In this document: one piece after another, positions 20,998 through 38,262 of the stretch
Layout: each line of letters begins with the position of its first letter
Position numbering within the stretch: position 1 is the first letter of the stretch
Origin: a virus
Reading direction: 5' to 3' (one strand)
DNA length: 64,000 nucleotides
Virus record (IMG/VR): IMGVR_UViG_3300021364_000001
Coordinates: 1-64,000 of that record
The notes under the pieces: model-generated
What the model was told of the DNA's origin: nothing
Seen by the model: the letters and a program-made list of their open reading frames with translations, nothing else
The model's database searches: none
Translations under genes and position numbers: made by a program

Positions 20998-21516
20998 CTA
21001 AGCAATGTGGACACCTCGGTGTGGACAGATCGCACCGAGACTGATACGAATATCATTCGTCGGTGGTTCGCCATCATGCTCCATTAGTGAATCAAATACA
21101 ATGATTCTACCACGCCTAAATGGTACTCTCTTGCCATTTGCAAAGGTAGTATCACCATCCTCACCATATGCATGGTAGATGATACTCGTAGCAGGACGAT
21201 TGAAGTCAGTATGTGTCTGTGAGGTGTGTCCAGGGTTCTGTGCATTAACTAGCAATCTATGCACATGTGTGAGTGGTAGATCCTTGCATATATCCTTCAT
21301 GATACACTCATTGAAGTATGCAAAGAACCAATACCATGGTGTCTCTTGGGTGAATTCATTGTCTCTGATGACAGTATTGCCCCAGAATCGTGCCTTACTA
21401 TAATCACCATAAGGTGTGTTGTTATAGAAGAATGGAAAGTCTGTCGCAAGATAGTTTCCAACGTCATCTACAATCCAATCAGGAAAGTATCCATCTATTA
21501 CTCTAATGTCACTCAT
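20998..21516 (-). CDS. Fe(II)/2OG oxygenase, P4H-like subtype, no. 4
   Basis: 172 residues. The metal site uses H-x-D: SQTHTDFNRPATSIIY (H102, D104), then IIVFDSLMEHDGEPP (H147) and NDIRISLGAI (R157 for 2OG). The N-terminus (IRVIDGYFPDWIVDDV) is typical of the prolyl-4-hydroxylase-like branch. It overlaps the PF13759-like oxygenase upstream by ATGA, so the two enzymes are translated in tandem. Substrate unknown. Confidence 0.85.
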   Translation of the reverse strand: MSDIRVIDGYFPDWIVDDVGNYLATDFPFFYNNTPYGDYSKARFWGNTVIRDNEFTQETPWYWFFAYFNECIMKDICKDLPLTHVHRLLVNAQNPGHTSQTHTDFNRPATSIIYHAYGEDGDTTFANGKRVPFRRGRIIVFDSLMEHDGEPPTNDIRISLGAICPHRGVHIA

Positions 21517-22103
21517 TTGATTCTAAAATTAGCAGATACAGTTATGCGAGCAGTCTCACTCTCAGGTTGTGGTGATACATGATGATGTAGATGAGAAGGG
21601 AAGATAATTATATCACCTTCCTTTACATGTGGGAACCATGTATTTGTTACTGGGTAGTGCTTACTGAAATACCCATGATGCATGTCTTGGTTAGGATTGT
21701 AGAACACAAATCTACCATCCTTCTCAGGATCGTACTGTAAGAAGTAAGCACAACTAAATGCAGTGTTATCTCCTCCACAATGTGTATGTACCTCTTGTGA
21801 ATTCCCCTGGTGATATACATTTATCCATGCTTCCGTCATTTCTATGCTCGTGAGTGGTTTCCCACCCAGTTGGACGTGCATGTCCATGAGATTATCGGAA
21901 ATGTAGTTGTTGAACATCTGCCATGAAAAATCGTTCTGATTCGTGTCACTTTCAAAGGACGACGAAACAGAACAATTCCATTCAGCAGGTTGTGTTAATT
22001 GTGCTGTACCCAATTCATACAGCAGCATTGCTTTCAATGCATCATGCTTTGCTACTTCTCCATGATAATACCATTTTGGAAATAGATTCTGAACTTTACC
22101 CAT
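21513..22103 (-). CDS. Fe(II)/2OG oxygenase, PF13759-like, no. 5
   Basis: 196 residues. The N-terminal strand (VQNLFPKWYYHGEV) and the motifs SQEVHTHCGGDNTAFSC (H106, H108), IIFPSHLHHHVSPQP (H174) and TARITVSANF (R186) give a full active site. It shares one nucleotide with the helicase stop (TAATG) and overlaps the next oxygenase by ATGA. Helicase, oxygenase and oxygenase therefore form one translated series from the module at 23367. Confidence 0.87.
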   Translation of the reverse strand: MGKVQNLFPKWYYHGEVAKHDALKAMLLYELGTAQLTQPAEWNCSVSSSFESDTNQNDFSWQMFNNYISDNLMDMHVQLGGKPLTSIEMTEAWINVYHQGNSQEVHTHCGGDNTAFSCAYFLQYDPEKDGRFVFYNPNQDMHHGYFSKHYPVTNTWFPHVKEGDIIIFPSHLHHHVSPQPESETARITVSANFRIK

Positions 22104-23856: not shown

Positions 23857-24186
23857 TCATCTTGCTGCTAATTCGGGTAGTAGTTCATTGCCTGGGTGAT
23901 CATTTGTCTCTCCATGATATGCTTTAACATGGTTAAAGTAAGTATCATCGAGTTCTAATTCATCCCAGTATTGATTGAAGACTAGCACACAACATTTGTT
24001 CAGTTGTTGTTTAGAACCAGGAGGATTAGGTTTTTCACTAATACAAATGGTGATGTATGCATCATCTACAAATTCTATATATCCTTCCACATCATGCCAT
24101 TTTACCCTAGCACCAGGTGATAGCGAGTTGATAATGTTTCTGATTTCCAATGCTGGTGCTTCTGAGATGAAGAGTGGAGTAGTCAT
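23857..24186 (-). CDS. Conserved hypothetical protein, last gene of oxygenase operon
   Basis: 109 residues (MTTPLFISEAPALEIRNIIN, then GARVKWHDVEGYIEFVDDAYITI and NKCCVLVFNQYWDELEL). The middle looks like a small beta-barrel; no enzyme motif. It overlaps the oxygenase before it by ATGA and lies about 70 nt before the GC hairpin at 23775-23789. It resembles small cyanophage proteins I cannot name. Confidence 0.65.
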   Translation of the reverse strand: MTTPLFISEAPALEIRNIINSLSPGARVKWHDVEGYIEFVDDAYITICISEKPNPPGSKQQLNKCCVLVFNQYWDELELDDTYFNHVKAYHGETNDHPGNELLPELAAR

Positions 24187-24788
24187 AAGGTTAGCAGCGA
24201 AGTTGGGTTACCGAAATCACCTCGTAACATGATGTTAAATGCTAATGAGTACCTCCTGATTGTGTCCTGGTTTGGTTTAACTGAGTGTACCAGGTCACTA
24301 GGGAAGATCAACACCATACCGTCCTGTGGCGTAACTGTCCACCGTGGAGAGTTATAGATGTTGTAGTGTGCTCTATCTGGGTCGATTGTTGCATACTTGT
24401 ACTGACTAAACACCAGGTCACCACAATTAGGGTGTGTCTTTAAGTATACAATACCACTCCACATACTGTGTCTGTGGTTATGTTCATGAGTAGAATCCAT
24501 GTGCTCATGTATATTTACCCATGAACATGGTACGTCAATAATATACTTGTCCTCAACACCTTGCACACCATGAATATACTCACTGATGTGTGGTTTGAGA
24601 AACTCTGTCATCTCAGGTATCTCTTTTAAGATATTCTGCTCAACAGAACTAACACCACCACGATACATGCCAGTGAAATTGCGATACTCTAAGTTTTCGA
24701 TCTTGTCCAGAATATCGGGCATAGTGTCATCAACAGCACAATACACTGGTGATGAGAACAATGGGAGTATTTCACTTGAAGTTGGCAT
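24183..24788 (-). CDS. Fe(II)/2OG oxygenase, PF13759-like, no. 6
   Basis: 201 residues. The N-terminus (ILPLFSSPVYCAVD) and the motifs STHEHNHRHSMWSG (H103, H105 by alignment to relatives), IFPSDLVHSVKPN (H168) and RRYSLAFNI (R178 or R179) complete the site. It overlaps the upstream oxygenase by 17 nt. As with its neighbours, a protein or small-molecule hydroxylase reaction is expected and the substrate is not known. Confidence 0.86.
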   Translation of the reverse strand: MPTSSEILPLFSSPVYCAVDDTMPDILDKIENLEYRNFTGMYRGGVSSVEQNILKEIPEMTEFLKPHISEYIHGVQGVEDKYIIDVPCSWVNIHEHMDSTHEHNHRHSMWSGIVYLKTHPNCGDLVFSQYKYATIDPDRAHYNIYNSPRWTVTPQDGMVLIFPSDLVHSVKPNQDTIRRYSLAFNIMLRGDFGNPTSLLTL

Positions 24789-25263
24789 TGATTAAGATCC
24801 TGTTCTTGTGCTTGCTGGGTGAGTGCCCAGTGTGCATGTGTCGTCCGTTGAATGTTAGAAGTCTGTTCTTTTTCGGTTGCACACGAACGATGTCGTGATC
24901 ATTCTTGTCTCCCAGAATAATAGTGTCGCCATCAGTGTCGTTGACATAATAGATACACACGGTGTGAGGTTCTTTGGCGTCTACATGAAAGTCATGACGA
25001 TAACCCTCAGGATTATATAGTGTCATATCTGCTCTCACTCGTAGACATTTCTTGGCAGATACTTCATCCTGCATTCTTTGTACTAATGGTGCAAAGTCAG
25101 GATCTCCATCTTCTGACAACCAATGATTGAATCCATGTGCCTGTATATTATCACACCCATGTGTGAGTGTGTGTTGATAAAACCATGGAAACTCCCACCC
25201 CATGAGTATATCATGAAGGTGGGCATGATAGTCTACATCAAGAAAATCATCGATGATCCTCAT
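24772..25263 (-). CDS. Fe(II)/2OG oxygenase, P4H-like subtype, no. 7
   Basis: 163 residues from ATG 25263 (MRIIDDFLDVDYHAHLHDIL), chosen because this is the usual N-terminus of the subtype; a start 33 nt upstream is possible. The site is RHDFHVDAKEPHTVCIYY (H93, D95), GRHMHTGHSP (H144) and HKNRILINANF (R155). GDTIILGD and FNGRHMH are the typical strands shared with the oxygenase at 25483. It overlaps the small gene before it by 17 nt. Confidence 0.86.
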   Translation of the reverse strand: MRIIDDFLDVDYHAHLHDILMGWEFPWFYQHTLTHGCDNIQAHGFNHWLSEDGDPDFAPLVQRMQDEVSAKKCLRVRADMTLYNPEGYRHDFHVDAKEPHTVCIYYVNDTDGDTIILGDKNDHDIVRVQPKKNRLLTFNGRHMHTGHSPSKHKNRILINANFK

Positions 25264-25471
25264 GTCGGAGATGTAAGGTGGTCGCAATTTCATCAATCAA
25301 TTTCCTTTTGCTAAGAGGAACTTCACCATACTTCTGATAATACTCTTTTTGAAGACTGAACAGTGCATGTTTGAGTAACACTTTCTGTTCCTCGGTCAGT
25401 TGTTGCGTTTTGAGAAACATGGTCATCACAGGCAGAGAACCGTAACTATTTAACGGTGGTAACCATTGCAT
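25247..25471 (-). CDS. Small helical protein between two oxygenases
   Basis: 74 residues from ATG 25471, 11 nt after the previous stop; a TTG at 25486 is the only other start. The centre (TQQLTEEQKVLLKHALFSLQ) is a charged helix. No family recognised. Its place between two oxygenases suggests a partner or a local insertion, without further support. Confidence 0.55.
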   Translation of the reverse strand: MQWLPPLNSYGSLPVMTMFLKTQQLTEEQKVLLKHALFSLQKEYYQKYGEVPLSKRKLIDEIATTLHLRHEDHR

Positions 25472-25482
25472 TGTAGCGAAAC

Positions 25483-26049
25483 TCAATGGGTTGTCGAGAC
25501 CCTCTTTCTGAAATTAACATTAAGAGCGATGCGATACCCACTAGTGGGAGATGATGATGCATGTAACACGTCACCATTAAATACAACCATCTTTCCACGC
25601 TCTGGTTCTACTCTCAACTGACATCTATGCTGGAAGATACTCATCTCGTCATTGAAGAAGATAGTATCACCATCACTCTTGTTCACATAATATAATGCTG
25701 TCACATGTTCATCTTCAAAGTCTACATGTGGACAGTGATGATCTAATTTGTCAGGTAGTAGGCAACCAAGACGGACGCGATAAATATCACGAAAATCTTG
25801 ACCAGCAGCATCAGCAATTAACCTCAACGCAGATTCAAATAGATCATAGTATTGTGAGACAGGTTCATAGTCCATCACCACAACATGTGAGAATGAACTA
25901 TTGTCAAACATACCTTGATATGGTCGATAACCACCATCAGCAAACGTGGTCTCTTTGACAAGATACCATGGAAACTGTTGTTGAGTAACTATATCCTCAA
26001 TCTGATCTACGATAACATCAGGGAGAGGATGTGTCGAACTCAATAACAT
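25483..26049 (-). CDS. Fe(II)/2OG oxygenase, P4H-like subtype, no. 8
   Basis: 188 residues from ATG 26049; a longer open frame to 26184 would overlap the JmjC-like gene by 167 nt and lacks family features. The site is CPHVDFEDEHVTALYYVN (H108, D110), VVFNGDVLHASSS (H163) and SGYRIALNVNF (R173). It resembles the oxygenase at 24772 (GDTIFF / GDTIIL and FNGD / FNGR), so the pair probably arose by duplication. It overlaps the JmjC-like gene by 32 nt. Confidence 0.85.
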   Translation of the reverse strand: MLLSSTHPLPDVIVDQIEDIVTQQQFPWYLVKETTFADGGYRPYQGMFDNSSFSHVVVMDYEPVSQYYDLFESALRLIADAAGQDFRDIYRVRLGCLLPDKLDHHCPHVDFEDEHVTALYYVNKSDGDTIFFNDEMSIFQHRCQLRVEPERGKMVVFNGDVLHASSSPTSGYRIALNVNFRKRVSTTH

Positions 26050-26737
26050 ATTGTTTGCGGTCGCTGGGTACGTCACGAGGATACATGCAAGGGATAGACA
26101 TAGACAATCGCTTACCACCTGGGAATGGTTTGTGATAAGTTCTTGCTGGAATATACATGACATCACCAGGTGACAGAGTGACATCTAGGGCAATGTGTAA
26201 CTCTTGCCCTGCTTTGTCTGGGAGATATGGTTCATCTGTCATTTCGATCAGAGCACTACATCTCTCTTCAAATACATTCCAGTGAGTTTCACCATCAATC
26301 TGACAAATGAAGTTAGGTGGTAGATCCCAATGGGCACCAAATGACTTGCTACCTTCTTTGGCAGCACCAAATATATGTGCATCACAGTTACAGTCAAACA
26401 TATCCTCTATGTTATTGAGGAGATTATCTACTGCTGGATTGTAATGCCCATACTGCTCAATGATAAATGTATGTCCTTCATTGATTGCTTGGAATAGTTC
26501 ATGCTTATGGGGCACACCTTTCTCATACCATACTTCAAACTTCTCAGGCAATAGTAAACGACGACCCTCCATATTAAGGATCTGAGTTCTATAATACCAT
26601 GGATTATTGAAACAGTGCGTGACTGTATCCCAGTTTACATATTGTAGAGGATTATCTAAACAATTACGCCACACCATTGGTTTGTCACCACATTGGAAGA
26701 CGTTAGGATTCAAGAATGGCAGGATTAGTTTGTTCAT
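26018..26737 (-). CDS. JmjC/cupin_4-type 2OG oxygenase, no. 9
   Basis: 239 residues. GAHWDLPPNFICQIDGETHW (H136-x-D138) followed by LSPGDVMYIPARTYHKPFPG (H202) is the arrangement of the cupin_4/JmjC family, to which the ribosomal-protein hydroxylase YcfD/RoxA belongs. Known members hydroxylate Arg or His side chains of proteins, which favours a protein substrate here. The N-terminal VWRNCLDNPLQYVNW segment also fits. ATGA overlap with the preceding oxygenase. It differs in fold branch from every other oxygenase in the window. Confidence 0.82.
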   Translation of the reverse strand: MNKLILPFLNPNVFQCGDKPMVWRNCLDNPLQYVNWDTVTHCFNNPWYYRTQILNMEGRRLLLPEKFEVWYEKGVPHKHELFQAINEGHTFIIEQYGHYNPAVDNLLNNIEDMFDCNCDAHIFGAAKEGSKSFGAHWDLPPNFICQIDGETHWNVFEERCSALIEMTDEPYLPDKAGQELHIALDVTLSPGDVMYIPARTYHKPFPGGKRLSMSIPCMYPRDVPSDRKQYVIEFDTSSP

Positions 26738-27399
26738 TTAACTTCCAGAAAATCACCCTCTGTGGGATCTAATGGATACCCAGAGATATTTACACTGATA
26801 GCAATACGTTCTTGCTTGTGATATGGCAGAGTACGATGTCTCAACCATGATGGGAAGATAAGATAATCAAATGTCTGAGTATCTACTGTATAAAAGTCAT
26901 ACAATTCACCCTCATCTGACCTACTCCAATCATCATATTCTTTGTCTAGTGGACACATCCTATGAATCTGTTGTAGTGGATTCTCAAACTGAATCTGTCC
27001 ACCATTTAATTCTTTCTGCAAATAATATACACAGGACACATGTGACTTGCTACGTCCACCACCAATGTGAGCATGTAGACCAGTAGTGTCACCACTGCTA
27101 TGACGATTTGCCCACATTGATTCAATGTAGAGATGGAAATCTTTACGATAACGTACAGTATTATTCCAGTAATCTCTTACAGCATGTAGCAGAGGATGTG
27201 TCAACCAATCAAACAATGGGTTATCAAATAGTTCTGCTCCACCATCAAGTTCTGATGTAGATTTACCAGACTCTAATGCCCACCCACCATTACACTGATC
27301 AAATGCATCAGTGAGAAAACCATAGGTAGCATTAAATTCTTGGTCAGATGGAACTATCGTCCCCTGCTTTACTGGTGTAGGAAATAGCAGATGATTCAT
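26734..27399 (-). CDS. Fe(II)/2OG oxygenase, PF13759-like, no. 10
   Basis: 221 residues. It starts with the family strand MNHLLFPTPVKQGTIV and has TTGLHAHIGGGRSKSHVSC (H109, H111), IFPSWLRHRTLPY (H188) and QERIAISVNI (R198). Its first 56 nt overlap the end of the preceding oxygenase in another frame, an unusually long overlap for this phage. Intact active site; substrate unknown. Confidence 0.87.
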   Translation of the reverse strand: MNHLLFPTPVKQGTIVPSDQEFNATYGFLTDAFDQCNGGWALESGKSTSELDGGAELFDNPLFDWLTHPLLHAVRDYWNNTVRYRKDFHLYIESMWANRHSSGDTTGLHAHIGGGRSKSHVSCVYYLQKELNGGQIQFENPLQQIHRMCPLDKEYDDWSRSDEGELYDFYTVDTQTFDYLIFPSWLRHRTLPYHKQERIAISVNISGYPLDPTEGDFLEVK

Positions 27400-28057
27400 T
27401 TTGTTTAATAATATCGAGCATGTTTTGCTTGTTCCTCACAGGAATGAAGTTGAACGAGATACTGATACGTTCGTCCTCAGTTTCATTCTCTCTAACACCA
27501 TGGGCAACCCAAGCAGGGAACAAGAACAGTCTACCAGCAATGGGTGGATATGACCACGTTGAGTGTGTATGTGGCACCTCTGCTGTACTCATGTCCTCAG
27601 ATGTGCCAATAGAATGCACTAAGAATCCCTCAGATGCATCCTTGTGGAATGTAAGTCTTCCACACTCACCTTCGGGAACTTTAACATAGAATGCACCAGA
27701 CATTACAGCACCAGGGTGAGTGTGAACCTCATTATATCCACCCTGTCCATTGATATTCATCCAAGCATTTGCATACTCAATAGTTGTATGGCATGAACCA
27801 TAACTACCGAATGCTTCTGTTGCCTTTGCTTTGATTTGTTGCAGCAGTTTCTTAAACTCATCCCCATCAAGTTCTTCGTCTTTGAGGATTTGCTCACCCA
27901 TAAAATCAGGGGACTGATAGTTCAGTAACCCCCGATTGCTTCGCGCTTTACCTTCCATGGTGTTCGCAATGTTATACACAATGCGTTCCATTTCTTGTAG
28001 ATCAATGTCAAGATCAACCCACCACACTGGGGTGGGAAAGATATAGTCAAGGTTCAT
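27344..28057 (-). CDS. Fe(II)/2OG oxygenase, PF13759-like, no. 11
   Basis: 237 residues. MNLDYIFPTPVWWVDLDIDL is the family start; YNEVHTHPGAVMSGAFYV (H112, H114), FPAWVAHGVREN (H186) and DERISISFNFIPV (R197) complete the best-conserved active site in the set. A 30-residue C-terminal tail beyond the fold runs into the next gene. It shares one nucleotide with the 141-residue gene before it, which separates it from the halogenase. Confidence 0.9.
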   Translation of the reverse strand: MNLDYIFPTPVWWVDLDIDLQEMERIVYNIANTMEGKARSNRGLLNYQSPDFMGEQILKDEELDGDEFKKLLQQIKAKATEAFGSYGSCHTTIEYANAWMNINGQGGYNEVHTHPGAVMSGAFYVKVPEGECGRLTFHKDASEGFLVHSIGTSEDMSTAEVPHTHSTWSYPPIAGRLFLFPAWVAHGVRENETEDERISISFNFIPVRNKQNMLDIIKQNESSAISYTSKAGDDSSI

Positions 28058-28482
28058 TACTTAACTTTGTTCAGAGTGGCATCAGTTTCGGACTGATCTG
28101 ATTCCCAGTCAGTATACTTTTCGTATCCAGGACGAGTACGAACCTTGATCCTCTTCTTCTCTTGAATCTCTGCTTCGATCCAAGGTTGTGCTTCTTCTTT
28201 GAGCACCAGAGTACGATACAGGTTAATAGTTTCCAGACCACCTTCAAGTTTAACCAGTTGATCACGCATTTCATTCATTTTGGTGAAATCAACACGAGTC
28301 TCTGTCTGGTCAAATGCCATAGCAGAAACTGACTCTTGCAGTGCAGTATAAGATGCAATCTGCTCACGATGTTGATAGATCAGATTTCTCCACAGATCAT
28401 CCAGAGTCTTTACTGCTTCTTCTGCACTATCAACTTGAACAATAGTTTCAGGTACTTCCTGTTCAAGAATTTCCTCAGACAT
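28057..28482 (-). CDS. Helical protein between halogenase and oxygenases
   Basis: 141 residues, acidic at the N-terminus and helical throughout (AEEAVKTLDDLWRNLIYQHR, then RDQLVKLEGGLETINLYRTL), with a basic stretch near the C-terminus (EKKRIKVRTRPGYEKY). Unrecognised. It starts 2 nt after the halogenase and runs into the next oxygenase by one nucleotide, so it is made together with them and could be a scaffold or chaperone. Confidence 0.65.
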   Translation of the reverse strand: MSEEILEQEVPETIVQVDSAEEAVKTLDDLWRNLIYQHREQIASYTALQESVSAMAFDQTETRVDFTKMNEMRDQLVKLEGGLETINLYRTLVLKEEAQPWIEAEIQEKKRIKVRTRPGYEKYTDWESDQSETDATLNKVK

Positions 28483-28484
28483 AA

Positions 28485-30074
28485 TTACTCCTTGTAAATT
28501 GTTTCTTTTGTGAACTCGTAGGTTGACGGTAGACCACTACACCAATCATACATCTCAGCATTCCATTCGTCAAATCGAATTTCTGCTGTATCTATCTCTT
28601 GTTGATCATGAACAGGTGACAGATTATTTTGTAAGCGTTTAAGTGTCAGTGTATGCTTATTTATAGGATTGAATCCCATGCCTGCTGCAATATATCGCAG
28701 ACCATCATTATGTGCAGGATCACCTGCAAATTCATAGATCACATGTTTCTCAGAGGCATATCTCATGAAGAGATTATCTAATGCACCAGTGGAGAAATCA
28801 TACTGTATATGATCAGCAACTTCTAACCAGTATGGTGTATCACGAGAGGAGAATGCATAGTGTGCAGCAATGAAGTTCTTGAATCCCTCAATTTCTAAGT
28901 CACACACTAAGTTTAGCATATCAACTTCAACACGAGGAACAAACCCATCACGACCTGCAAGATTATTACACAATCGTAGAATCTGTTCGTGTGTAGTGAG
29001 TAGACCAGTTGCTTCTAATGGTTCAACAAAACAATTAGATAGTCCTACTGCACATACATTCTTCTCCCATGATTTAGTATGCTTACCATTTCTAAATGGC
29101 ACATGCTTGAATGATCCTATATTATCAGCACGTTTGATACCTCGTGTGCGAGCAACATAGGCATGTAGATCTTCCTCTGCTTTCTCCTTAGATGAGAAAT
29201 CAGATGAGTACACATATCCACAACCAGATCTCTCCCACAGTGGAACATCCCAGACCCAACCATTCTCAATGGCAGTACAGTTAGTGCTATTAACTATTTC
29301 TTTTTCTGGATCTTCGTGTGGTACATGACATGTTACTGCACTATCATTGAGTAGACAACCACCATCATTTACATGGAATGATTCAAATGGTACGCCCATG
29401 AATTGTTCAAGCAGCAGTGACTTGAACCCTGTGCAGTCAATGTATAGATCATACTCTAATCGTTGACCTTCATCAGTCAACAACGCTTTAATATGACCCC
29501 TATCATCCTTCTCGCAATCAACTACATTGCCTTGCATGTAGTTTAGACCAGGACAATAGTTATTCTTCAACCATTGACCAAACTTAACTGCATCCATGTG
29601 GTATGCAGTATCACCACCAAAGTTAATCCTATCAGGATCGTTAGTAAGTTTATTGTAGTGAGCAAGTTGACCAATAATGTTATGACATCTCGCAAATGTA
29701 TTGCGAGTAAACTTCTCTGGTTTTTGAAGATTGAGAGCAAACCATGACATCCAACCATGTGGACATAGTTCCAGTCTCTCCATGGCATCGCCAAAAGGAT
29801 AGTCCCAGGTCTCTTCTTTCTTGTAGAAGTCATTGAATCTAATGTTGACCTTATATGTGGATCCTGTGTCTTTCATCCACATATGATCTTCAAGACCAAT
29901 CGCCTCAAAGAAGTCATTAATTTGTCCCAGTGTAGATTCACCTACACCAATGATGGGATAGTTCTTAGACTCAATTAGTGATGTTTTAATATGAGGGCAA
30001 AGTTTCAAAAGGGCGGCAGCGGTCATCCAACCAGCAGTGCCGCCCCCTACGATGAGGACATTACGAATGTGCAT
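28485..30074 (-). CDS. prnA: FAD-dependent tryptophan-halogenase-like enzyme
   Basis: 529 residues, full family length. Visible signatures: Rossmann GGGTAG (10-15), GVGEST (43-48), the catalytic Lys in GSTYKVNIRF (K75, equivalent to PrnA K79), WVWDVP (273-278), the WxWxIP halogenase fingerprint, and VEPLEATG (350-357) with E351, equivalent to PrnA E346. Known members use FADH2, O2 and chloride or bromide to halogenate the indole ring of Trp. A flavin reductase partner is not encoded in the window, so the host would have to supply FADH2. It sits between tail-fibre and oxygenase genes in one late unit; a protein Trp, free Trp or an indole is possible as substrate. Confidence 0.88.
   Translation of the reverse strand: MHIRNVLIVGGGTAGWMTAAALLKLCPHIKTSLIESKNYPIIGVGESTLGQINDFFEAIGLEDHMWMKDTGSTYKVNIRFNDFYKKEETWDYPFGDAMERLELCPHGWMSWFALNLQKPEKFTRNTFARCHNIIGQLAHYNKLTNDPDRINFGGDTAYHMDAVKFGQWLKNNYCPGLNYMQGNVVDCEKDDRGHIKALLTDEGQRLEYDLYIDCTGFKSLLLEQFMGVPFESFHVNDGGCLLNDSAVTCHVPHEDPEKEIVNSTNCTAIENGWVWDVPLWERSGCGYVYSSDFSSKEKAEEDLHAYVARTRGIKRADNIGSFKHVPFRNGKHTKSWEKNVCAVGLSNCFVEPLEATGLLTTHEQILRLCNNLAGRDGFVPRVEVDMLNLVCDLEIEGFKNFIAAHYAFSSRDTPYWLEVADHIQYDFSTGALDNLFMRYASEKHVIYEFAGDPAHNDGLRYIAAGMGFNPINKHTLTLKRLQNNLSPVHDQQEIDTAEIRFDEWNAEMYDWCSGLPSTYEFTKETIYKE
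28658..28665 (-). promoter_or_regulatory. Possible internal late promoter TATAAATA
   Basis: A perfect late box inside the 3-prime part of the halogenase gene, about 175 nt before the gene at 28482. It could boost the downstream oxygenase run, but it also encodes Pro-Ile-Asn-Lys, so it may be chance. Confidence 0.4.
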
Positions 30075-30081
30075 ACTTTAA

Positions 30082-30621
30082 TCAAGCATCAGGGGCAGGT
30101 TGTTGTGCTTCGGGTGCGTACTTACCAATCTTAAACTCTTTCTGAGTTGCATCATCGAACTGCTCAGGTCCCCACCATGCGGGCATATCTTCACTGTGTG
30201 GGAATGGTTCGTTAGGAAGAACTTTCTGCTTGACAATAGTAGTCTCACCAGTCATTTCGTCAGTCACCTCAACTTCTTCATATTGAATGGGAGGTTGATT
30301 GTCTTTGACGCCCTTAACATGCTGGTAGAACTTACCTTCTTTTGCTGCTTCACCAAACAAACCAGCATCAATGTCCTTATAGAGCATAGAAAGTTGCTCA
30401 CCAGGATCACCATATGCTACCACACGCAGCATCTCAGGATCGTGGAATTCAAAGTCAGGAATCCACTCACCGAGTTCTAATTTCCAGTCGATAGTAGCAT
30501 CGTCAGGAATATCCATCCAACGAAGACCTGCACCAGGTCCTGTATAGACTTCAAATTCTTCACCTGCTTCGACAATATCTGTGATAAATCCGTCAGCGCG
30601 GACTAATGCTCTTTGTCCCAT
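30082..30621 (-). CDS. Tail-fibre cluster protein with GDQLDxLYKDI-like motif
   Basis: 179 residues. The segment YGDPGEQLSMLYKDIDAGLF followed by KEGKFYQHVKGVKDNQP follows a pattern widespread in phage tail-fibre loci (GxQLDxLYxDIxAGxxxxxFYxxIKxVKDxxP), usually in fibre-tip or fibre-assembly proteins. The N-terminus is a small beta domain (ALVRADGFITDIVEAGEEF). It lies 4 nt after the glycine-rich tip and 7 nt before the halogenase. A fibre-attached or fibre-folding role is inferred. Confidence 0.6.
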   Translation of the reverse strand: MGQRALVRADGFITDIVEAGEEFEVYTGPGAGLRWMDIPDDATIDWKLELGEWIPDFEFHDPEMLRVVAYGDPGEQLSMLYKDIDAGLFGEAAKEGKFYQHVKGVKDNQPPIQYEEVEVTDEMTGETTIVKQKVLPNEPFPHSEDMPAWWGPEQFDDATQKEFKIGKYAPEAQQPAPDA

Positions 30622-30625
30622 TGGT

Positions 30626-31426
30626 TTAATCGAATTCGTAAACTACAACAATACCCTGGCGACCGTCACCACCACGCTCGGAGTTACGACCAGAGGAACC
30701 ACCAGCACCGTAGGCAGCGTGCGCTCTGTGTCGCTGCGCCCACTGTTGCTGACGGTGTGATGTGGGCGAAGAACCACCCCAGAAGGATGTGCCACCGTGA
30801 CCCAGACCAGGAGGGTTTCTATGACCCTGTGAAGAACCACCATAGATTCTAACAGAACCTTGGGAAGGATTACCACCCGTGGATCCATCATGCTGTTGTC
30901 TACGGTTTGCACCCTGTCCACCACCAGATGAACAATAGTTACCAAAGGAAGAAGTGCCGCCATTGCCAGCACGACCAGAATAACCAGTACCACTACCAAC
31001 ACCACCAACAGTAACAGAAATACTATTGATGTTTTCTACATTAACGATGGTTTCAGTGTGAGCACCAGCAGCGCCAGACTCACCATAACCTGATCCACCG
31101 CCGCCGCCACCAGTACACTTCACCCAGATACGCTTAATGCCACTGGGTTTGTTCCAGGTTCCGTTACCAGTATACACGGAAATAGACTTAGGTCCACCAC
31201 CAGAGGGGATAGATGCCCAAGACATTGTACTGCCGTTTGTTGACAGATACTTACCTGATTGTCCAGATACTGATGGGATAACCTGTGCAGAACTACCAGA
31301 GATGGTTCCATTAATGTTGATGTTAGAAACGGTAAGAGTACCGTTCACAGTAATAGAACCAGAACTGAGGTTAAGACCACCAGAACCAGACAGGTCTCTA
31401 ATAGAGGATACTTTTAGGGTACTCAT
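30626..31426 (-). CDS. Glycine-rich tail-fibre tip (adhesin) A
   Basis: 266 residues. The N-terminal 110 residues form a beta fibre domain beginning MSTLKVSSIRDLSG; after KRIWVKCTGGGGGGSGY the rest is a Gly-rich domain with His/Gln/Arg loops (TSHRQQQWAQRHRAHAAYG). This looks like the polyglycine-II type of adhesin known from T4-like gp38 and phage glycine-rich domains, which bind receptors through the loops. It is about 88% identical in its C-terminal half to the next gene upstream. It is the first gene of the late operon that contains the halogenase and oxygenases. Confidence 0.8.
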   Translation of the reverse strand: MSTLKVSSIRDLSGSGGLNLSSGSITVNGTLTVSNININGTISGSSAQVIPSVSGQSGKYLSTNGSTMSWASIPSGGGPKSISVYTGNGTWNKPSGIKRIWVKCTGGGGGGSGYGESGAAGAHTETIVNVENINSISVTVGGVGSGTGYSGRAGNGGTSSFGNYCSSGGGQGANRRQQHDGSTGGNPSQGSVRIYGGSSQGHRNPPGLGHGGTSFWGGSSPTSHRQQQWAQRHRAHAAYGAGGSSGRNSERGGDGRQGIVVVYEFD

Positions 31427-31449
31427 TGATTACTTGTCTCCTTCGTTGT

Positions 31450-31457
31450 TATTTATA
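31450..31457 (-). promoter_or_regulatory. Late promoter TATAAATA of fibre-halogenase-oxygenase operon
   Basis: Perfect late box on the minus strand, 24 nt before the ATG of adhesin A. Downstream genes run to 23857 with no gap larger than 11 nt. Confidence 0.78.
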
Positions 31458-32261
31458 TCAAATGAATTCGTAGACTACGATGATGCCTACACGACCATCT
31501 CCACCACGTTCTCTGTATCTAGCAGATGATCCACCAGCACCATAAGCAGCGTGTCCTCTATGACGTTGTGCCCATTGTTGCTGTCTATGAGATGTAGGAG
31601 ATGATCCACCCCAATAAGAGTGACCGCCATGACCCAGACCAGGAGGATTGCGGTGACCCTGAGAAGATCCACCATAGATTCTAACAGAACCTTGATTAGG
31701 ATTACCGCCAGTAGCACCTTCATGCTGCTGACGACGGTTTGCACCCTGTCCACCACCTGAGGAGCAATAGTTACCGAAGGAAGATGTTCCTCCATTGCCA
31801 GCACGACCAGAGTAGTTAGTACCACCACCACCGCCACCAACAGTAACGGAGATGGAATTGATATTTGCTACGTCTACAAATGTCTCAGTGTGAGCACCAG
31901 CGGCACCAGATTCTCCATAACCTGATCCACCACCACCTCCACCAGTACACTTCACCCAGATACGTTTTACGCCACTAGGTTTGTTCCAAGTAGAGTTACC
32001 ATTATATACAGAGATCGAGTTAGGAATACCAAGGTTAGTTGCATTCGCTTGCCACGAAATAGTGGATCCATTGGTATACAAGTATCTACCAGAGTTACCA
32101 CTCTGATTAGGAATAATATAACCAGAAGAACCAGTAAGTGTACCATTGATTACGATGTTAGTAACCGTAAGAGTACCATTAGCAGTGATCTGTCCGTTTG
32201 AGAAGGACATACCACCCTGATTATTCAGGTCCTTAACTTGTGCAACATTAAGTCTGGTCAT
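31458..32261 (-). CDS. Glycine-rich tail-fibre tip (adhesin) B
   Basis: 267 residues, a paralogue of adhesin A. The C-terminal glycine domain matches closely (VKCTGGGGGGSGYGESGAAG, then the same HRQQQWAQRHR loop), while the N-terminal domain has diverged (MTRLNVAQVKDLNNQGGMSF). Codons differ widely between the two copies, so the duplication is old and the protein is under constraint. A late box at 32282-32289 precedes it. It probably forms an alternative receptor-binding tip. Confidence 0.8.
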   Translation of the reverse strand: MTRLNVAQVKDLNNQGGMSFSNGQITANGTLTVTNIVINGTLTGSSGYIIPNQSGNSGRYLYTNGSTISWQANATNLGIPNSISVYNGNSTWNKPSGVKRIWVKCTGGGGGGSGYGESGAAGAHTETFVDVANINSISVTVGGGGGGTNYSGRAGNGGTSSFGNYCSSGGGQGANRRQQHEGATGGNPNQGSVRIYGGSSQGHRNPPGLGHGGHSYWGGSSPTSHRQQQWAQRHRGHAAYGAGGSSARYRERGGDGRVGIIVVYEFI

Positions 32262-34686: not shown

Positions 34687-37600
34687 TTAGATAACGAGTT
34701 CACGAATATGGATTGTGTCACCAGTTGCAGGGGGTGTAGCGATAGAGAAGTCAACAGCATTACCTGTTACTGTATAATCTACACCAGGGGTCTGTGCAAC
34801 ACCATTAAGGAATACCAAGACAGAATATGCAGTGTGTCCAGGTGAGATACCAAACGTTTGTGAGGAACCATCACCGCTATACGTCACACCATTATTACCA
34901 TTAGCAATACCAGTTGCTAATGAGTATTTATCAGCGCATCCATACTTACCAGTAACATCGATGTCACCATCAAAGTATGTGTTACCACTGATCTTCAAGC
35001 GGTTAGATGCATCAGGTGCCATACCAATACCATAGTTGGTAGTGCCACTGAATCTGTTAGATGTGATCGGAGTGGTATCACTCAGACCAAACTTATACCA
35101 GGTGCCAGAATCATAGATCCAACCAAGAGATTGACCAGGTGTCCAGTCAATGTTATAGCAAATGTCTCCACTGTTGAATGCAAGACCAGCGTCAAGATCA
35201 GGCAGACCAGAACCTAACTCTTCGGCAAGGAATGTCTGCCTCAGAACAGTACCATCATCGTTCGAGTAGGTAAAGTTCAGAGACTGAATCTGATCCTGTG
35301 AAGTAATCTTCTTCTGGAAGGTTACAGGACCTGAGAACACAGACTCCAACTGGTTAGATGCACCACCGATAACAGTAAGTTTATCAGTCAGCACCAACTC
35401 AGAGAAGGTTTCAATCGTTGTACCTTCTTCACCCAACACATTCAACTGTGCAATATCTTCGTTAGTGATCTGACCCGTAACAGGGTTAATCACCTGGTTA
35501 CCAACGAACAGTTCACCGTCAGAGTTCACACCAGAGTAGTATGCAACACCTGCTGCTTCTTTGAGTGACTGAGACAATCTAACCTGCTCAGGTGAGAGAA
35601 CCTCAACCTGAGTAGATGGGAATGCTGTTGAGTAGTTACCAGGACCGAAACCAAGATACTCAAACGTGTGACCAGATGCACGCAGAATAGAATAACGACG
35701 GAGTTCAATACTCAGAGGAGCGATAGAACCATCAGTGTTGAGTTTCAGAGGAATCTTTCTATCTTCCTCATCACCCAGACGTGCAGTCACAACAATGTTA
35801 GACAGAGTATTTGTTGTGGTGGTATAACCAAGGTTGTTATTTCCTTCAAGCAGGAAGAACTGTGCAGTCTCCTTAGTAATAGACAACTGAGTGTCTTCAT
35901 TAGGAGTAGGACTTGCACCATCAGTAGTTCTAACCAGACCCAGAATCTCATTGTCTGCGACAGAAACAGCAGCAGCAGGGTCATCAACAGGGTTATCTCT
36001 GTCGAATGCAGGATAGATGTCTACTGTCTGTTGAGAGAACTCAAAGTCATCAAAGTTAGAGGTGATGGGAGATACTGACGCAGACAGAACTGTAAGGTAG
36101 TAGATACCATCAGTTTCACCAATCACGAACTCTTGGAATGTTTCTACATCATAGATGTAGTAAGTCTTAGAGTATGCAGGTGAGTTAGTTTCAGATGATC
36201 TAGGTTGCAGTACGAAACCAGTAATCGGAGGACGAGGAATCGGGAATGCATCCTTATCCAGGACATAACGGAAACGATAAGTTCTGTCAGTCAGATCACG
36301 AGCATCAGGTACACGACGTATAAAAGTAGTAGGAGTAAATCCAAGGTTCTGATACAGCGAGTTTGCTTGCAGTGTGGTGTAGATAGTATTGTTAGCGTTA
36401 TCTACTTGCAGATACCACTGACCACGGTTTGTATCATACTTGATTGGGTTCTCATCATCACCTGCTCTTGTGCCAGTTACATCAGGACCAGAGGGTGAAA
36501 TATCAGCATAGTGTGTAGTGGGTTCAGACGCGCCAGCAGCAACAAGTGCTACATATACTCTGTCAGGAGTATTAACATCATCACGTCTTGCACCAATAGT
36601 ATAACCCTGAATCTTGCTAGGCGGTCTACCTAATTCAGAGGTGTAACCATATAAGTACAAACGCGAGTTATCTGCTTCTGCTCGGGTGGCGTTGATGTCG
36701 ATAGTAACCCAGTTAATCGAGATCTCATCAACGTCATCCAGCGACTTGGGTGGGATAACGTGAGTAATTTGTCCTGCCTTGTCCTTTGTGAAGGCAGTTG
36801 CCTTAAATCCTTTTGATCGCAGGGATGTATTTCCGAAATTACTATTACTGTTGGTAATAGAAAGGTCACCACCACTGTCAGCGAAGAAATGATCGCCAAA
36901 TCCCACAGCGAACACAGACACAACCTGAATGAATGAATCATTGGATGCCTTAATGTGCGCGTGACGCCATCCTTTACGGTACTCAGCAAGACCATTAATG
37001 TGTGCGCCAGATCCTGCTGCTTGTGGTTCATAGTTTCCAGAGGAAGGGTTATAAACTACAAATGCACGGTCATCCTTTTGAAGGGAGATGCCAGTGAACT
37101 GTGCAACCACCATCGATTTGAAACCAGTTGCACGCGAACCATCAGCGTGCATACCATTGATACCCCAAACAGAACGTAGGGACATGTTAAACACATATGG
37201 TGACGCAGAGTCAACCGTGTCAATCTCAACTTTAACAAGGATGTTTGAACCGATAGCATTACCTGAGGGTTCTGCTGACATCTGATAAGTAAACTGGTTA
37301 CCCTGTGCAGATGTTACCAGGAACGATCCATTATAGAGTAGTTTATCCTGCTCAGTAGGACCATTAACGCCAGAAATGTTAACAGCGACACCCACGGAGA
37401 ATCCATGATTCTTCGGGTTACCGATCTCGTCAACAGTAAACGCCGTAGCAGTTTGTCCATTTCTGATAATCTGCGATACAGCAAATTCGTCCGAGATCGG
37501 ACCCACAATTCTGTTTTCTTCGATTCTTGCTTGCAACTGGTCCTGTGCAACCACACCAGAGGAGTCAGGAATTGTAGCGTATGCTTTCGAGATCTTCTGG

Positions 37601-38262
37601 TAGTACAGGTTCAGATCATCTACGTTAGCAAACTCAAAGCAAGTGAGTTTGTGGTGAGAGAAGTTAGGAGCAATAGTTGCAATATCATCACCACGATAGT
37701 AGACACCATTGGTATCACCATCGAAGAAGGATGCCTGCCAGAAGTAACAACCACCAGTTAAGTTAAAGATCGCAGAAGCAGTAGGTTCATTAGTAGCAGT
37801 AATACCGAGACTACCCTGTACTGTGGGATACGGGACATATTTTGGAATGAACTTGGTTCGACGTAAGTCCGAACCAACAACAGAGCAACCACGAGGGACA
37901 ATAACACCACCGCGAGTTGAATTAAACCTATAAAGAACATTGCTACTACTCGTTAGGTCAAAGTTAGTATTAGCGTCAAACGGTTGAATATCATTATAAT
38001 CTGCTACCCCAGGTCTGTTATCCAGAACGTAGTCAGAAGGATACAGATAGATCGAGAATGCGTCGAATTCGTCATTACTCAGACCAACACGATAGGAGAA
38101 TCGTGCCACTTCAAGAAACGCACGTTGTAATGTCTTAAACGGACGCAATGCCGAGTTACCTCGGTTATCATATGCGTCCGATGCATCGAAGTCGTCAGGG
38201 TTGACGTAGATAATACGTCCAGTCCTAGACGTGATGATATTTTTAAGACGAGTTAGTGCCAT
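34687..38262 (-). CDS. Large tail-fibre/structural protein
   Basis: 1191 residues. The N-terminus (RTGRIIYVNPDDFDASDAYD, then ALRPFKTLQRAFLEVARFSY) matches a beta-helix-type structural protein found in nearly all cyanomyoviruses. The middle is a long beta-rich shaft and the last about 60 residues (HTAYSVLVFLNGVAQTPGVD then YTVTGNAV) form a common phage fibre end domain. Likely the proximal part of the long fibre or a baseplate-bound adhesin. A late box lies 42 nt upstream of its ATG. Confidence 0.75.
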   Translation of the reverse strand: MALTRLKNIITSRTGRIIYVNPDDFDASDAYDNRGNSALRPFKTLQRAFLEVARFSYRVGLSNDEFDAFSIYLYPSDYVLDNRPGVADYNDIQPFDANTNFDLTSSSNVLYRFNSTRGGVIVPRGCSVVGSDLRRTKFIPKYVPYPTVQGSLGITATNEPTASAIFNLTGGCYFWQASFFDGDTNGVYYRGDDIATIAPNFSHHKLTCFEFANVDDLNLYYQKISKAYATIPDSSGVVAQDQLQARIEENRIVGPISDEFAVSQIIRNGQTATAFTVDEIGNPKNHGFSVGVAVNISGVNGPTEQDKLLYNGSFLVTSAQGNQFTYQMSAEPSGNAIGSNILVKVEIDTVDSASPYVFNMSLRSVWGINGMHADGSRATGFKSMVVAQFTGISLQKDDRAFVVYNPSSGNYEPQAAGSGAHINGLAEYRKGWRHAHIKASNDSFIQVVSVFAVGFGDHFFADSGGDLSITNSNSNFGNTSLRSKGFKATAFTKDKAGQITHVIPPKSLDDVDEISINWVTIDINATRAEADNSRLYLYGYTSELGRPPSKIQGYTIGARRDDVNTPDRVYVALVAAGASEPTTHYADISPSGPDVTGTRAGDDENPIKYDTNRGQWYLQVDNANNTIYTTLQANSLYQNLGFTPTTFIRRVPDARDLTDRTYRFRYVLDKDAFPIPRPPITGFVLQPRSSETNSPAYSKTYYIYDVETFQEFVIGETDGIYYLTVLSASVSPITSNFDDFEFSQQTVDIYPAFDRDNPVDDPAAAVSVADNEILGLVRTTDGASPTPNEDTQLSITKETAQFFLLEGNNNLGYTTTTNTLSNIVVTARLGDEEDRKIPLKLNTDGSIAPLSIELRRYSILRASGHTFEYLGFGPGNYSTAFPSTQVEVLSPEQVRLSQSLKEAAGVAYYSGVNSDGELFVGNQVINPVTGQITNEDIAQLNVLGEEGTTIETFSELVLTDKLTVIGGASNQLESVFSGPVTFQKKITSQDQIQSLNFTYSNDDGTVLRQTFLAEELGSGLPDLDAGLAFNSGDICYNIDWTPGQSLGWIYDSGTWYKFGLSDTTPITSNRFSGTTNYGIGMAPDASNRLKISGNTYFDGDIDVTGKYGCADKYSLATGIANGNNGVTYSGDGSSQTFGISPGHTAYSVLVFLNGVAQTPGVDYTVTGNAVDFSIATPPATGDTIHIRELVI

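Follow-up and report, generated by a model that had tools for sequence, protein, structure and literature searches.

Some phages modify their own virion proteins, glycosylation by phage-encoded enzymes being a known case. The cyanophage tryptophan halogenase gene prnA has been read as conferring antibiotic protection, and the 2-oxoglutarate (2OG) oxygenases of these phages as acting in DNA repair or through effects on 2-oxoglutarate (PMC2984593, PMC3037559, PMC9964418), with protein modification listed among the possible oxygenase roles by the authors of the S-CREM1 study (PMC9964418). VirX1, a flavin-dependent halogenase of cyanophage Syn10 (PDB 6QGM), was investigated as a small-molecule iodinase and combines in vitro activity with an unusually open, accessible active site; the part of that report available to us addresses neither its natural substrate nor its fibre context (PMC8407142). 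Flavin-dependent halogenases acting on ribosomal peptides encoded at their own loci are exemplified by SrpI and MibH (PMC10858898). The fibre of cyanophage Pam3 has a chaperone and a Gly-rich domain for which binding of the host receptor was proposed (PMC9608196). Here, we analyzed a 64,000-nucleotide (nt) stretch of viral DNA (IMG/VR record IMGVR_UViG_3300021364_000001, positions 1 to 64,000; hereafter the window), in which a minus-strand gene run encodes a Gly-rich fibre tip (adhesin A), a 179-amino-acid (aa) protein, a VirX1-type halogenase and six oxygenases. Tips of this family were found repeatedly and exclusively together with a halogenase, a linkage left unexplained by the published readings of an antibiotic-type tryptophan halogenase and DNA-repair oxygenases. 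The best explanation, which we consider probable, is that the enzymes tailor the receptor-binding tip during virion assembly.

The third gene of the run (28485–30074) encodes a Trp_halogenase (Pfam, E 2e-94), for which VirX1 was the closest solved structure, with full-length homology (residues 3–527, 365.9 bits, about 40% identity) and shared catalytic Lys/Glu motifs. In contrast, free-tryptophan halogenases scored at most 223 bits, with alignments that stopped at about residue 421–426 (near 421 for PrnA and RebH) and left the C-terminal part uncovered; it is in this part that the tryptophan site of PrnA lies. The window protein has the flavin-binding motif GxGxxG (GGGTAGW at residue 10) and the WxWxIP motif (WVWDVP at residue 273, with Val for Ile as in several relatives), and the Lys of STYK and the Glu of EPLE were invariant across 16 homologues. 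The VirX1 gene of Syn10 occupies the same slot as the window gene, with fibre tips on one side and oxygenases on the other. When 74 halogenases were placed in a tree, the fibre-linked proteins grouped apart from those of S-MbCM6, S-SSM7, P-SSM2 and Syn1, with a few extra copies from multi-halogenase clusters falling outside the fibre-linked group. Four of the loci surveyed below (L077, L089, L310 and L316) carry three or four different halogenases per cassette, and in two of them the halogenases and the tips are encoded on different strands.

Adhesin A (30626–31426) matched Gly_rich_2 (PF21722) with 31.1 bits against a Pfam cut-off of 24.3. Its sequence matched no solved structure and only fold comparison succeeded, the AlphaFold2 model of the tip (mean predicted local distance difference test score, pLDDT, 85) matching the Pam3 fibre (7YPX, E 2.5e-8). 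The N-terminus resembles a fibre docking segment rather than a leader. As in Pam3, where fibre gp24 is accompanied by chaperone gp25, the gene after the tip encodes a beta-plus-alpha protein, here of 179 aa (30082–30621), modelled with a pLDDT of 92 as a beta domain (aa 1–55) followed by helices (aa 62–108), a layout like that described for gp25. Sequence searches identified no chaperone and Foldseek gave no match to gp25 or to the Mu TFA fold at E ≤ 0.001; its position and layout make the 179-aa protein a candidate tip chaperone. Its Trp149 did not vary among 52 diverse homologues, in contrast to the poorly conserved C-terminal region around it. Unlike the window cassette, Pam3 has not been described as carrying modifying enzymes (PMC9608196).

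A synteny survey was proposed in the original prediction as a check, with lack of conservation of the neighbourhood as a refuting outcome; this outcome did not occur, the synteny found being far above expectation. Loci from IMG/VR were gathered separately with the halogenase, the tip and the 179-aa gene as anchors, using home-made profiles, and all three anchors returned one architecture: one to three Gly-rich tips, a small beta/alpha protein, one or two halogenases, a helical protein and oxygenases, with tips in tandem in relatives. The loci are interrelated and each gathering comprised the 80 best matches. A halogenase was present in 72/72 tip-anchored viral loci that had 2.5 kb or more of sequence downstream and, in a wider survey, with 89/89 non-redundant tips having 5 kb downstream; these are the fair figures, since the overall count of 268/268 includes loci fetched via the halogenase and is circular. 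An oxygenase was found in all 61 tip-anchored loci with at least 6 kb downstream, and with the 179-aa gene as anchor the count was 62/62. When the tip was used as a tblastn query, a halogenase was present in each of the 14 phage records that matched. From the opposite direction, 46 of the 59 halogenase-anchored loci with upstream sequence have a tip of this family within 3 kb. In S-WAM1, S-SZBM1, P-RSM6, S-CREM1, Syn9, Syn10 and P-TIM40, the tip is followed in turn by the 179-aa-type gene, one or more halogenases, the helical protein and oxygenases; S-RIM44, Sf-FP1 and Sf-FR1 contain equal parts, but there the helical gene is at the distal end. In some contexts the cassette follows the phrog_529 shaft, and in others it lies between a giant structural protein and gp13. 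Adjacency is kept on contigs with altered order or strand (L042, L301 and L325; L310, L316 and L326), including some with the order tip-halogenase-small gene or with halogenases on the opposite strand. Common to all contexts are the tip, the small gene and the halogenase, while the shaft and other virion genes vary.

Two comparisons indicate what the halogenase follows. The fibre shaft (window 34687–38262) is present in 460 phage records, and the five shaft carriers inspected (S-SM1, S-CAM8, P-SSM7, S-SSM4 and ACG-2014a) have other genes at the tip site and no halogenase; thus, the halogenase follows the tip and not the shaft. The S-RIM44 isolate KX349293 has three tips, a 179-aa-type gene, two halogenases and oxygenases ahead of gp13, whereas isolate KX349295, with a gp13 flank 94.8% identical to that of KX349293, has one oxygenase but no tip, small gene or halogenase. 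These data indicate that, in marine cyanophages, the tip and halogenase, usually with an oxygenase array, are acquired and lost as one block.

The gene run was described in the original prediction as a perfect late box followed by 12 closely spaced genes, and this was borne out: the box TATAAATA (31457–31450, minus strand) lies 24 nt from the adhesin A ATG, and the 12 minus-strand open reading frames downstream of it are separated by spacers of 4, 7 and 2 nt and overlap thereafter, so that no gap exceeds 7 nt. The predicted end at a hairpin-promoter module was likewise found, as an intrinsic terminator with a 9-pair hairpin and T tract (23792–23772) followed by a TATAAT-like -10 element. The upstream limit of the operon does need to be moved, since a second tip of the adhesin A family (31458–32261, minus strand, 78% identical to adhesin A) lies directly upstream, preceded by its own late-type box AATAAATA (32289–32282), and should be included in the unit. 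As TATAAATA occurs 5 times in the window against about 1.5 expected, a single box is weak evidence. In 140 non-redundant related loci, the distance to NATAAATA was 80 nt or less for 64/130 first tips (49%) and 54/141 small genes (38%), but almost never for the oxygenase genes (0/315, 0/110 and 6/249), as expected if one late transcript begins at the tips. The box positions thus favour joint late transcription starting with the tips, in agreement with the late co-expression with a fibre tip that had been proposed and against the early, separate transcription of the enzymes that was to refute it. Internal sigma-70-like promoters in the operon showed no excess over shuffled sequence. A second perfect copy of TATAAATA lies within the halogenase gene at 28665–28658, about 180 nt ahead of the helical-protein gene, and may be either a chance occurrence or an internal late promoter.

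Downstream of the halogenase, the operon continues with a gene for a 141-aa helical protein (HEL4, 28057–28482), conserved ahead of the oxygenases, and the count of six oxygenases given in the original prediction proved right with the JmjC protein included: in Pfam, five of the proteins have a 2OG-Fe(II) domain and the sixth is JmjC_2. Three of the proteins are of family PF13759 (27344–28057, 26734–27399 and 24183–24788); they score above the Pfam cut-off, but their first metal-ligand motif reads HxH. The two PF13640 genes (OXY3; 25483–26184, with a probable start at 26049, and 24772–25296) have the HxD...H...R facial triad, as HVD...H...R, and the triad is also present in the JmjC_2 gene (26018–26737; HWD...H). 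The operon is completed by two small genes, SM6 (25247–25486, phrog_712), located between the OXY3 genes, and SM9 (23857–24186, 109 aa, phrog_8681), the last gene.

MINA53, NO66 and YcfD are hydroxylases of protein His or Arg residues. The JmjC_2 protein of the window is closest to these three ribosomal oxygenases and shares their catalytic domain; however, the match is confined to the JmjC core, and the 239-aa protein does not have the architecture of JmjC, dimerisation and winged-helix domains found in its relatives. Both PF13640 oxygenases match phrog_274, labelled "DNA endonuclease V", and in S-WAM1, P-RSM6 and Syn9 their relatives bear the annotation DenV or DNA endonuclease V; this label seems to be an error passed on between annotations, and the interpretation of these genes as DNA-repair enzymes may owe something to it.

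In the mechanism that we propose, the late promoter would co-produce the tip, the small protein and the enzymes. Either ahead of assembly or in its course, aromatic residues exposed on the Gly-rich tip would be halogenated by the VirX1-type enzyme, other side chains would be hydroxylated by the 2OG and JmjC oxygenases, and the modified tip might then differ in its receptor contacts, folding or stability. The tip is the most economical substrate because the tip, small gene and halogenase are the constant elements, peptide halogenases offer precedents and the VirX1 active site is open. As with SrpI and MibH, the enzyme would act on a ribosomal product of its own locus, but here the substrate would be a folded virion protein, and neither a leader nor an export system was seen. 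As with virion glycosylation, phage enzymes would act on phage structural proteins, but halogenation and hydroxylation of a receptor-binding tip would be a new chemistry. The original prediction of a phage virion-tailoring system is in part supported: among virion proteins the tip is the best supported substrate, but the loop HRQQQWAQRHR that had been offered as an example target does not hold as a general one, its Trp229 being Trp in only 18% of 327 aligned tips (Phe in 47%, Tyr in 30%). In the same alignment, Tyr149 and Phe161 were conserved in about 100%, His179 and His202 in 97%, Trp91 in 92% (Tyr in 8%), His224 in 89%, and His233 and His236 in 83%. Better candidates than Trp229 would be Tyr149, Trp91, His179 and His202, with Tyr149 and Trp91 as the best candidate sites for the halogenase and the conserved His residues 179, 202, 224, 233 and 236 for the oxygenases. 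Tip Arg and Gln contents increased and Tyr decreased with oxygenase number, but this trend was left unused because shared ancestry had not been removed from it.

Several observations weigh against tip modification. The conserved Tyr and His residues may be simply structural, and the presence of the JmjC protein did not correlate with tip His content (p = 0.46). We found no report of a halogenated or hydroxylated phage tip, nor literature on hydroxylation of phage fibres; no link of cyanophage halogenases or oxygenases to fibre tips was found in the open literature surveyed. Thirteen of the 59 halogenase-anchored loci have no tip of this family within 3 kb, although two of these (L026 and L071) adjoin tips of another family (phrog_15750) and some others, as judged by eye, adjoin fibre-like proteins; in S-B64 (L011) and locus L043 the halogenase has no fibre alongside. 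Conversely, more distant members of the tip family without a halogenase may exist, the S-SM1 tip, which has a weak match to phrog_863 (E 3.5e-5), being accompanied by none. Oxygenase arrays without a halogenase follow unrelated fibre tips in S-SM1 (L255) and S-CAM8 (L256), and some tip-halogenase cassettes contain no oxygenases. The oxygenases are thus tied to this tip family more loosely than the halogenase, and may serve fibre tips generally.

The enzymes could instead belong to auxiliary metabolism, synthesising or changing a small molecule or a free amino acid, e.g. for antibiotic protection, with the fibre site serving only for late expression. Cyanophage prnA and 2OG genes have been interpreted in this way in the literature, and the idea accords with the many small aromatics accepted by VirX1 in vitro and with the distant halogenases of S-MbCM6 and Syn1, which have metabolic genes around them. 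We nevertheless regard it as unlikely, since it does not explain the exclusive pairing with a single tip family, the joint loss or the persistence of linkage after rearrangement, and since the fibre-linked halogenases stand apart from the S-MbCM6, Syn1 and P-SSM2 type and the window enzyme does not align with the tryptophan-binding region of PrnA. Late timing would suit equally well a different late target, either another virion protein or the host surface, modified e.g. against re-adsorption to debris or to block superinfection, and carbamoyltransferase or sugar genes do lie near the halogenase or fibre genes in S-SSM7 and S-CAM8; but the only neighbours that stay constant across contexts are the tips and the 179-aa protein, which makes such a target rather improbable. 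Finally, the fibre locus may be a recombination hot spot at which tip and enzymes are swapped jointly through flanking homology with no joint function. Fibre loci are modular, their cargo varies between phages and the S-RIM44 swap is a block exchange, yet hitch-hiking of this kind predicts many halogenase-free tips, and none was seen among the 89 non-redundant tips or those with changed order or strand; we consider it the least probable of the three.

Modification of the tip, as the preferred explanation, would provide the VirX1-type halogenase with a candidate natural substrate. Cyanophage halogenases and the many 2OG oxygenase genes of marine T4-like phages are commonly assigned to auxiliary metabolism or to DNA repair. 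That the halogenase is coupled exclusively to a single family of receptor-binding tips points to a concrete substrate that is testable by virion proteomics on an existing isolate. In a broader form, which we advance only tentatively, cyanophages would possess dedicated enzymes, encoded next to each tip, for halogenating (with bromine or iodine from seawater) and hydroxylating the tips that bind their receptors, and VirX1 would have this as its natural role. If true, phages would tune host recognition by halogenation and hydroxylation, gaining a chemical diversity that the twenty amino acids do not offer, and proteins would be the substrates of halogenases whose active sites are open, of relevance to biocatalysis and to ocean phage-host evolution.

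Two further protein families were observed in related cassettes. A family of about 265 aa (L005 11577–12362, corresponding to Syn10 gp43), with homologues in 177 loci, is encoded between the halogenase and the helical protein in most cassettes but is absent from the clade of the window; one member weakly matched DUF6065 (E 0.00045), a domain on which we found no literature. In eight loci (L040, L045, L046, L049, L068, L305, L313 and L314), a protein of about 410 aa is encoded between the tip and the halogenase; these cassettes have few or no oxygenases, and one of the contigs is 354 kb long. In the window, a further 2OG-Fe(II) oxygenase (phrog_81) is encoded at 21513–22103, past the helicase gene and outside the operon.

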